Source of the DNA: Desulfovibrionales bacterium
Lineage (GTDB): Bacteria; Desulfobacterota; Desulfovibrionia; Desulfovibrionales; Desulfovibrionaceae
Direction of reading: 5' to 3'
NCBI GenBank assembly: GCA_030156255.1
Contig: JASGMV010000030.1
Span: 1 to 46,779 of the forward strand
Length of the DNA stretch: 46,779 nt
Part shown: positions 23,922-24,142 of the stretch, piece after piece
Numbering within the stretch: the stretch's first letter is position 1
How the letters are laid out: each line of letters starts with the position of its first letter
Translations under genes and position numbers: made by a program
The notes under the pieces: generated by a model
Database searches by the model: none
Told to the model about the DNA's origin: nothing
What the model saw: the letters and a program-made list of their open reading frames with translations, nothing else

Positions 23922-23935
23922 GCACCAACACGTGC
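23922..23935. promoter_or_regulatory. Candidate AnfA site 1 upstream of anfH
   Basis: GCAC-CAACAC-GTGC, a dyad with the same 4-6-4 spacing as the two sites below. It is about 200 bp before the -24 box. The pattern resembles GTAC-N6-GTAC, described for the VnfA-type activators of alternative nitrogenases. Confidence 0.45.
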
Positions 23936-23950
23936 ACTGGGCGCCGGAAC

Positions 23951-23964
23951 GCACCTCCAGGTAC
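23951..23964. promoter_or_regulatory. Candidate AnfA site 2 upstream of anfH
   Basis: GCAC-CTCCAG-GTAC, essentially the mirror image of site 3. The outer bases extend the dyad to GCACC-N4-GGTAC. Confidence 0.6.
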
Positions 23965-23977
23965 GATCCTGGGCAAT

Positions 23978-24001
23978 CGACCGGGCGCCGTCGCCCGGTC
24001 G
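23978..24001. repeat. GC-rich palindrome between the AnfA sites
   Basis: CGACCGGGCG-CCGT-CGCCCGGTCG, a perfect 10-bp stem with a 4-nt loop, placed between candidate sites 2 and 3. It could be a spacer structure, an accessory protein site or a transcript hairpin. It lacks a T run, so it is not an obvious terminator. Confidence 0.55.
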
Positions 24002-24006
24002 GAATC

Positions 24007-24020
24007 GTACCGGAAGGTGC
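24007..24020. promoter_or_regulatory. Candidate AnfA site 3 upstream of anfH
   Basis: GTAC-CGGAAG-GTGC, centred about 115 bp before the -24 GG, a normal distance for an enhancer-binding protein. The preceding bases make an ATCGTACC octamer, which also occurs upstream of anfA in the same orientation and at nearly the same distance. Confidence 0.65.
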
Positions 24021-24126
24021 AAATACCCCGCAAAACGATCCCATCCGGTGCGAAATCGTCCGTCATCCTGGCAATATCCAAAGATTTTTTGTCCTGAACG
24101 CTCCTTGAACCCCGATTGCGCCGCTC

Positions 24127-24142
24127 TGGCACGCCCCGTGCT
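24127..24142 (+). promoter_or_regulatory. Sigma-54 promoter of the anfHDGK operon
   Basis: TGGCACG-CCCC-GTGCT matches the -24 element perfectly and the -12 element with one change (GTGC for TTGC). It is followed by TTTTA. The predicted start is near 24153, about 60 bp before anfH. Confidence 0.85.

Follow-up and report, generated by a model that had tools for sequence, protein, structure and literature searches.

The iron-only nitrogenase fixes nitrogen without molybdenum and also makes methane. The sites bound by its activator, AnfA, have been studied in A. vinelandii and R. capsulatus, and regulation by AnfA has also been described in R. palustris; our account of these systems follows excerpts of the published papers. 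In R. capsulatus, AnfA binds two dyads before anfH with the consensus TAC-N6-GTA, and at R. vannielii nifB a CAC-N6-GTA form has also been accepted as a site (PMC7294313). The anfH promoter is the only R. capsulatus Fe-nitrogenase promoter that depends strictly on AnfA (PMC7294313), and anfA transcription there uses the housekeeping sigma factor, with NtrC as activator and the Mo regulators as repressors (PMC6925177, PMC7294313). For A. vinelandii, the AnfA binding motif is given as C-N-GG-N3-GGTA (PMC7294313), and lacZ fusions and qRT-PCR revealed that AnfA activates both anfH and its own sigma-54-dependent anfA promoter (PMC9542535). The related activator VnfA recognizes GT(T/A)C-N6-GTAC, mostly present twice per promoter (PMC9542535). 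Within the Desulfovibrionales, an AnfA/VnfA-like one-component activator has been predicted for nif genes, the DVUA0143 regulon (PMC4641369). In the passages of open-licence papers that we consulted, we found no description of AnfA sites before an anf operon in Desulfovibrionaceae.

We analyzed a stretch of 46,779 bases (the window), which is contig C45 of a 3.84 Mb (3,835,702 bases) genome from this family. The two best named matches to its AnfD are Desulfovibrionaceae/Desulfocurvus records. The window carries an iron-only nitrogenase operon and a convergently transcribed activator gene:

24212..25039, plus strand: anfH, Fe protein of the iron-only nitrogenase, first gene of the operon, above the nifH model cut-off
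25087-25410 and 25420-25791, plus strand: two PII-like genes between anfH and anfD
25798-27393, plus strand: anfD, above its own model cut-off
27404-27754, plus strand: anfG, above its own model cut-off
27767-29155, plus strand: anfK, above its own model cut-off
31352..33109, minus strand: anfA, sigma-54 activator with GAF, AAA+ (with GAFTGA), and Fis-type HTH_8 domains, convergent with the operon

The Pfam domains GAF, Sigma54_activat, and HTH_8 of AnfA all score above cut-off, its translation contains the GAFTGA motif for sigma-54 contact, and a cysteine motif, CAQKRNGESGDCGTGTC, lies near the N-terminus; cysteine motifs are carried by the GAF domains of AnfA and VnfA (PMC7294313). Another contig, C101, holds a Mo-type nif cluster and encodes the genome's best NifA match. 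Since all six matches to the nifD model in this genome fall on C101 and C45, a V-nitrogenase with its own VnfA is unlikely here. The two PII-like genes occupy the same place between anfH and anfD as nifI1 and nifI2 do in some nif operons. Their position suggests PII control of the iron-only enzyme. PII control of AnfA has been described (PMC12093980).

The upstream regions of anfH and anfA contain the following elements, with distances counted from the start of each site to the -24 box:

23872..23901, plus strand: terminator-like hairpin and T run that closes the upstream gene and precedes the enhancer sites
23922..23935, plus strand: AnfA-type site 1, GCACCAACACGTGC, 205 bp before the anfH -24 box
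23951..23964, plus strand: AnfA-type site 2, GCACCTCCAGGTAC, 29 bp after site 1 and 176 bp before the -24 box
23978..24001, no strand assigned: perfect inverted repeat with 10-bp arms, CGACCGGGCG-CCGT-CGCCCGGTCG, between anfH sites 2 and 3
24007..24020, plus strand: AnfA-type site 3, promoter-proximal, GTACCGGAAGGTGC, 120 bp before the anfH -24 box
24127..24141, plus strand: sigma-54 promoter of anfH, TGGCACGCCCCGTGC, aligned in the related genomes G209 and G223
33291..33305, minus strand: sigma-54 promoter of anfA, TGGCATGGCGATTGC
33414..33427, minus strand: AnfA-type site before anfA, GTACCATTACGTGC, 122 bp before the anfA -24 box

A first-pass annotation had reported dyads at 23922, 23951, and 24007 before anfH and one at 33414 before anfA. 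All four are present, and they are the only matches to GYAC-N6-GTRC in the window. Neighboring anfH sites are 29 and 56 bp apart. The earlier distances of about 115 and 117 bp between the promoter-proximal site and the -24 box differ from our 120 (anfH) and 122 bp (anfA) in reference point only; edge to edge, the intervals are 106 and 108 bp. The octamer ATCGTACC indeed recurs in the same orientation in both upstream regions (24004-24011, and 33423-33430 on the minus strand). Activators of this class bind about 80-200 bp upstream of a sigma-54 promoter, the range within which the window sites (120, 176, and 205 bp at anfH, 122 bp at anfA) fall.

None of the four sites is a full GTAC-N6-GTAC. 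The sites at 23951, 24007, and 33414 combine one TAC/GTA half with one CAC/GTG half, while both halves of the site at 23922 are CAC/GTG. The GTAC-N6-GTAC site of VnfA, which the first-pass annotation had taken as the known relative, is almost identical in consensus; among the published accounts we drew on, the nearest site is the TAC-N6-GTA of AnfA itself (PMC7294313).

Two further elements were noted in these regions. An inverted repeat, TATCTA-N10-TAGATA (33344-33365), lies between the enhancer and the promoter of anfA, ~40 bp before the -24 box; it was not evident in the alignment with G209 and G223 and is possibly a metal or repressor operator. The -12 element of the anfH promoters was never TTGC, being GTGC, ATGC, TCGC, or TGGC in 21 of 21 examined (24137-24141 in the window; loci L115-L134, L011, and L017), and all seven anfA promoters with a clear match had TTGC. 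The departure from TTGC may make anfH more strictly dependent on its activator.

We determined how often the dyad occurs elsewhere in the genome. GYAC-N6-GTRC is found 121 times in 3,835,702 bases, or about once per 32 kb, and the reversed control pattern is commoner, with 335 matches. At this density, the Poisson chance of at least four dyads in the ~690 bp that cover both upstream stretches is 9e-9, and that of at least three in 300 bp is 1.4e-7, figures that take the motif as fixed beforehand, which is not quite the case, as the pattern was chosen after the sequence had been seen. GTAC-N6-GTAC with up to one mismatch was not enriched in the window (six matches, three of which are these sites, versus 4.53 expected from shuffles). 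Because of this, it is the GYAC/GTRC form, together with where the sites lie and how they are conserved, that carries the evidence. Placement is exclusive: GTAC-N6-GTRC, followed after a gap of 85-115 bp by TGGYAY-N6-TGC, occurs at exactly two places genome-wide, the anfH and anfA promoters, and the reversed control of this site-plus-promoter pattern has no match. Equal frequency in random genomic DNA, which the first-pass annotation had named as a refutation, was not observed; the sites are far rarer elsewhere. In the same genome, the region upstream of nifH has no strict dyad; it contains a TGT-N10-ACA site and, 14 bases from each other, two lone GTAC words. The two strict dyads on C101 (at 5547 and 14285) both lie within open reading frames, of 378 and 283 amino acids.

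We also asked if the sites are kept in orthologous promoters, where the first-pass annotation had said that their fate would be telling. Among 288 genomes of the family, 22 are anf+ (defined as anfG, TIGR02929, found). We used 20 of the 21 anf+ genomes other than our own, leaving out G024 (contig of 4.4 kb); as the contigs used from G266 and G263 contain no complete anfH, this gave 19 usable anfH upstream regions with the window. Strict dyads were present within 400 bp in 14 of these 19 regions, a count that overstates independence because seven of the genomes belong to one genus; counted by genus, the dyad is found in six of eight. There were 24 sites at spacer 6, compared with zero to four at any other spacer from 0 to 15, and dyad density was 57-fold higher than in the rest of the same loci. 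Shuffled anfH regions contained a mean of 0.39 dyads and at most 3. When whole loci are counted, spacer 15 outnumbers spacer 6 (63 versus 45), with only 4 of the 63 in anfH regions. The strict site was absent within 400 bp in five of the 19 regions: all three of genus g25, one of g17, and one of g39, the last of which has a site 399 bp before the -24 box. Before anfA, no strict site was found in any of the seven genomes of genus g18. An altered dyad seen by eye in g25, TAATA-N6-TATTA, was set aside, since its positions differ and a motif-free search did not recover it.

The closest orthologs are in G209 and G223, whose AnfH proteins are 95-96% identical to that of the window. In the alignment, all three anfH site positions are in register in both genomes; the three sites are strict in G223, while G209 has one strict and two one-mismatch sites, with the position of site 1 (23922) strict in G223 and one mismatch away in G209. 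The sites lie 182, 153, and 109 bp before the -24 box in G209 and G223 compared with 205, 176, and 120 bp in the window. The interval between sites 2 and 3 is 12 bp longer in the window, and both relatives lack the inverted repeat at 23978-24001. The anfA promoters of G209, G223, G034, and G215 are likewise preceded by a site at 102-127 bp, which lies 122 bp from the -24 box in G223 and 125 bp in G209. The matched geometry of the two promoters, an earlier claim, is thus partly coincidental: the pair of 120 and 122 bp is real in the window, but since the anfH distance in G223 is 109 bp and its anfA distance 122 bp, it does not reflect a fixed rule. Spacings between sites do recur, as neighboring strict sites 29 bp apart were seen again in g1, g37, g39, and g18, and the 56-57 bp spacing in g1 and g12.

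Sequence constraint extends beyond the core. Pooling the anfH and anfA upstream regions, window included and within-genus duplicates removed, gave 29 promoter dyads, 19 of which are full GTAC-N6-GTAC. The flank [AT][AT][CT] accompanied 33 of their 58 half-sites; of the 30 half-sites that make up 15 dyads in other parts of these loci, none had it (p 1.4e-8). The ATC of the ATCGTACC octamer is part of this looser flank.

A search for dyads without a given motif, with 30 shuffles per group, ranked the GTAC dyad near the top in three groups of the family. For g1, g17, g33, g37, and g39 together, GTACC-N4-GGTAC ranked first (tied), in four of six regions versus a shuffle maximum of three. TGTAC-N6-GTACA and CGTAC-N6-GTACG were each found in six of seven g18 regions (maximum five), tied with A/T-rich dyads, and CGTAC-N6-GTACG in three of three g12 regions, equal to the shuffle maximum of three. 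Outside the family, the same search, again with 30 shuffles per group, did not find GTAC dyads. The best dyad in Enterobacterales, AGTTC-N6-GAACT (5/13), equaled the shuffle maximum, and the best in Chlorobi (3/7) fell below it. For the alphas, AATTT-N11-AAATT (7/11 versus 5) exceeded the maximum and TTTAC-N7-GTAAA (5/11) equaled it. Since Firmicutes without a linked AnfA also exceeded their shuffles (an A/T-rich dyad in 8 of 20, maximum 7) and the g18 GTAC dyad tied with A/T-rich ones, this test is not tight.

Beyond our own genome, we examined 80 contig loci, 72 of which have a usable anfH upstream region (73 with the window). Strict dyads occurred in 7 of the 44 loci whose stretch includes an AnfA gene and in 0 of the 29 whose stretch does not, some of the latter stretches being short (one of 66 bp) and unlinked AnfA genes being possible elsewhere in those genomes. 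Excluding the window, L001, L002, L010, L024, and L049, which leaves loci outside the family, 5 of 38 AnfA-linked loci have a strict dyad; with the other 33 lacking it, a universal site code is ruled out. Loci from Desulfocapsaceae and Desulfobacteraceae have the looser TAC-N6-GTA. Conservation of the strict dyad holds for most anfH regions of the family (14 of 19) and fails in all three g25 genomes and in most AnfA-linked loci outside the family.

We next consider whether sites and AnfA occur together. Window AnfA is nearest to the AnfA proteins of G223 and G209 (82% and 77% identical), in a single tree that has long NifA and C83 branches inside. At a threshold of E <= 1e-170, AnfA orthologs were found in 24 of the 288 family genomes, comprising all 22 that are anf+ and two (G137 and G215) of the 266 that are anf-. 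Of the 22 anf+ genomes, 10 have the site-plus-promoter pattern, compared with 11 of the 266 anf- genomes (Fisher 1.6e-7); in 8 of those 10 anf+ genomes it matched at a nitrogenase-related promoter. As the reversed control with promoter is commoner than the pattern family-wide (43 versus 23), the signal lies in placement and not in number. The 19 anf+ genomes contain 12 matches (6 for the reversed controls): nine at anfH or anfA promoters, one at a nifV-like gene, and two that fall within reading frames, at the same place in G040 and G078. In the other orientation there were two matches (control 1), both at anfH promoters.

The near-complete genome of G215, in which anfG was not found, carries an AnfA gene (L199:9330-11203) with the usual recognition helix, and its single pattern match lies just upstream of that gene, with a promoter, TGGCATACGGGTTGC, 127 bp from the start of the site. 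Among other anf- genomes with the pattern, which include G113, G228, G149, and G146, the match in G200 precedes a P-loop ATPase-like gene (by eye). The AnfA homolog of G137 and a second one in G269 lie near nifD/E-like matches and have the helix TRRTLTLRM; their surroundings (19.5 and 18 kb) contain no strict dyad. In g25 (L121, L122, and L125), the AnfA copies before anfH have an altered helix, TYRSMGIRM, and anfH has no GTAC dyads. A code in which the helix TRR[TSI]MGLRM goes with GTAC sites and TYRSMGIRM without was weakened by the second AnfA copy present in all three g25 genomes, as both of the two second copies read have the usual helix.

With the sites, the promoters, their conservation, the exclusive placement of the combination in this genome, and the co-occurrence with AnfA all read directly from the sequence, the four dyads are very probably AnfA enhancer sites that drive the anfH operon and anfA. 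The earlier prediction, that AnfA activates both the operon and the anfA gene, is the best reading of the conservation of the sites and their rarity elsewhere. We infer that AnfA is the protein that binds the dyads. Each GYAC-N6-GTRC would be read by the HTH pair of an AnfA dimer, with [AT][AT][CT] as the preferred outer flanks. Bound ~120 bp and further upstream of the -24/-12 elements, AnfA would loop to sigma-54 RNA polymerase, assemble an AAA+ ring, and open the promoter by ATP hydrolysis. Before anfH, the three consecutive sites, 29 and 56 bp apart, may give strong cooperative activation, and the single site before anfA would provide positive feedback, its sign presumably activating and not repressing. 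Such feedback would allow a small initial amount of AnfA to commit the cell to the iron-only nitrogenase. The likely trigger is low Mo together with low fixed N.

The sign of the effect at anfA is where a different reading survives best. AnfA could bind all four dyads, with the anfA site serving repression or fine-tuning and anfA activated mainly by an NtrC-like factor or NifA. R. capsulatus provides a precedent, as its anfA is NtrC-activated and repressed by the Mo regulators and only anfH is strictly AnfA-dependent (PMC6925177, PMC7294313), and a lone site would be expected to enhance less than a set of three. Against this, a consensus sigma-54 promoter follows the anfA site at 122 bp, which puts the site at the position of an activator; it is kept at 102-127 bp in G209, G223, G034, and G215, and A. 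vinelandii AnfA activates its own sigma-54 promoter (PMC9542535). We regard a repressing or tuning site as improbable.

We give marginally less credence to the dyads being read by another sigma-54 activator, either the Mo-system NifA of C101 or the NifA-like protein of C83, with AnfA binding elsewhere. Other binders exist, as the NifA family model matches 43 times in this genome, in some cases only in part. NifA- and AnfA-type half-sites may also be close, given the one-mismatch dyads in 5 of 12 AnfA-less g33 nifV promoters and the two lone GTAC words upstream of nifH in the same genome. But that nifH promoter has TGT-N10-ACA and no strict dyad, and the two C101 dyads are inside reading frames. 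Of the 29 genomes searched for the C83 protein (our own included), 24 encode it, among them 11 other family genomes, all anf-; its distribution therefore does not follow that of the sites, as that of AnfA does, even in G215. VnfA would require a V-nitrogenase system that is unlikely here. Chance matches to a loose pattern, for which one could cite the number of dyads genome-wide and the choice of pattern after the fact, are contradicted by conservation, spacer specificity, flank constraint, and placement and deserve almost no weight.

Under activation by AnfA, nifV is a possible third target in some genera. As the FeFe cofactor contains homocitrate (PMC9310841), control of nifV by AnfA would make sense. 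There are two separate cases. In g12, a nifV above the family cut-off and different from that of G209 lies directly before anfA, with a strict dyad 164-185 bp before its sigma-54 promoter in all three genomes examined. Sigma-54 promoters also precede the corresponding genes in G223, G154, and G160, where no strict dyad lies upstream. In G209, the sole other pattern match precedes a nifV-like gene that is divergent from a nifH-type gene; its best model is homocitrate synthase (314 bits, below the cut-off of 462.9). Of 17 members of genus g33 searched, 13 have this nifV-like gene, and G209 alone among the 13 has both the strict dyad and AnfA. In 5 of the other 12 nifV promoters, a one-mismatch dyad such as GTAC-N6-GTAG lies ~100 bp before the -24 box, compared with 131 bp in G209. 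The 4 kb around the nifV candidate of our own genome (C25) contain no strict site. Several g33 and g37 nifV/nifH intergenic regions (L177, L178, L206-L214) contain half-sites of the TGTAG/CTACA type, which may be for NifA what the GTAC half-site is for AnfA. These observations suggest a tentative extension, to which we assign a little less than an even chance: an AnfA circuit with up to three targets (the operon, anfA, and, in some genera, nifV), in which nifV sites were gained at least twice and the GTAC versus TGTAG/CTACA half-site may divide control between AnfA and NifA. Gain of AnfA sites at nifV would wire cofactor supply directly to AnfA instead of leaving it to NifA.

A conserved site model for relatives of sulfate reducers makes the regulon directly testable, and with it AnfA targets such as nifV could be predicted from sequence alone. 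It also supports positive feedback as a feature in common with A. vinelandii.

Together, the comparison with excerpts from the literature places this locus as a new lineage, among sulfate-reducer relatives, of the known AnfA switch, with a modest extension to nifV. As in R. capsulatus, anfH is preceded by more than one dyad with a six-base spacer, lying between a terminator and a sigma-54 promoter, and the regulator belongs to the AnfA family (PMC7294313); unlike in R. capsulatus, the core is GYAC/GTRC, the sites number three and are spaced by 29 and 56 bp, and anfA carries a site as well (PMC7294313). AnfA is proposed to activate anfH and its own sigma-54 promoter, as in A. vinelandii, but no VnfA layer is seen here, and the footprinted A. 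vinelandii AnfA sites keep only the GTA half whereas the sites of this family are dyads. The near-identical consensus and paired arrangement recall the A. vinelandii VnfA sites (PMC9542535), which serve a V-nitrogenase regulon, and no V-nitrogenase was seen in this genome. Within the same bacterial order, the DVUA0143 regulon likewise has an AnfA/VnfA-like activator at nitrogenase promoters, those of the nifHDK-type operons of D. vulgaris and its relatives, whereas the operon controlled here would be anf.
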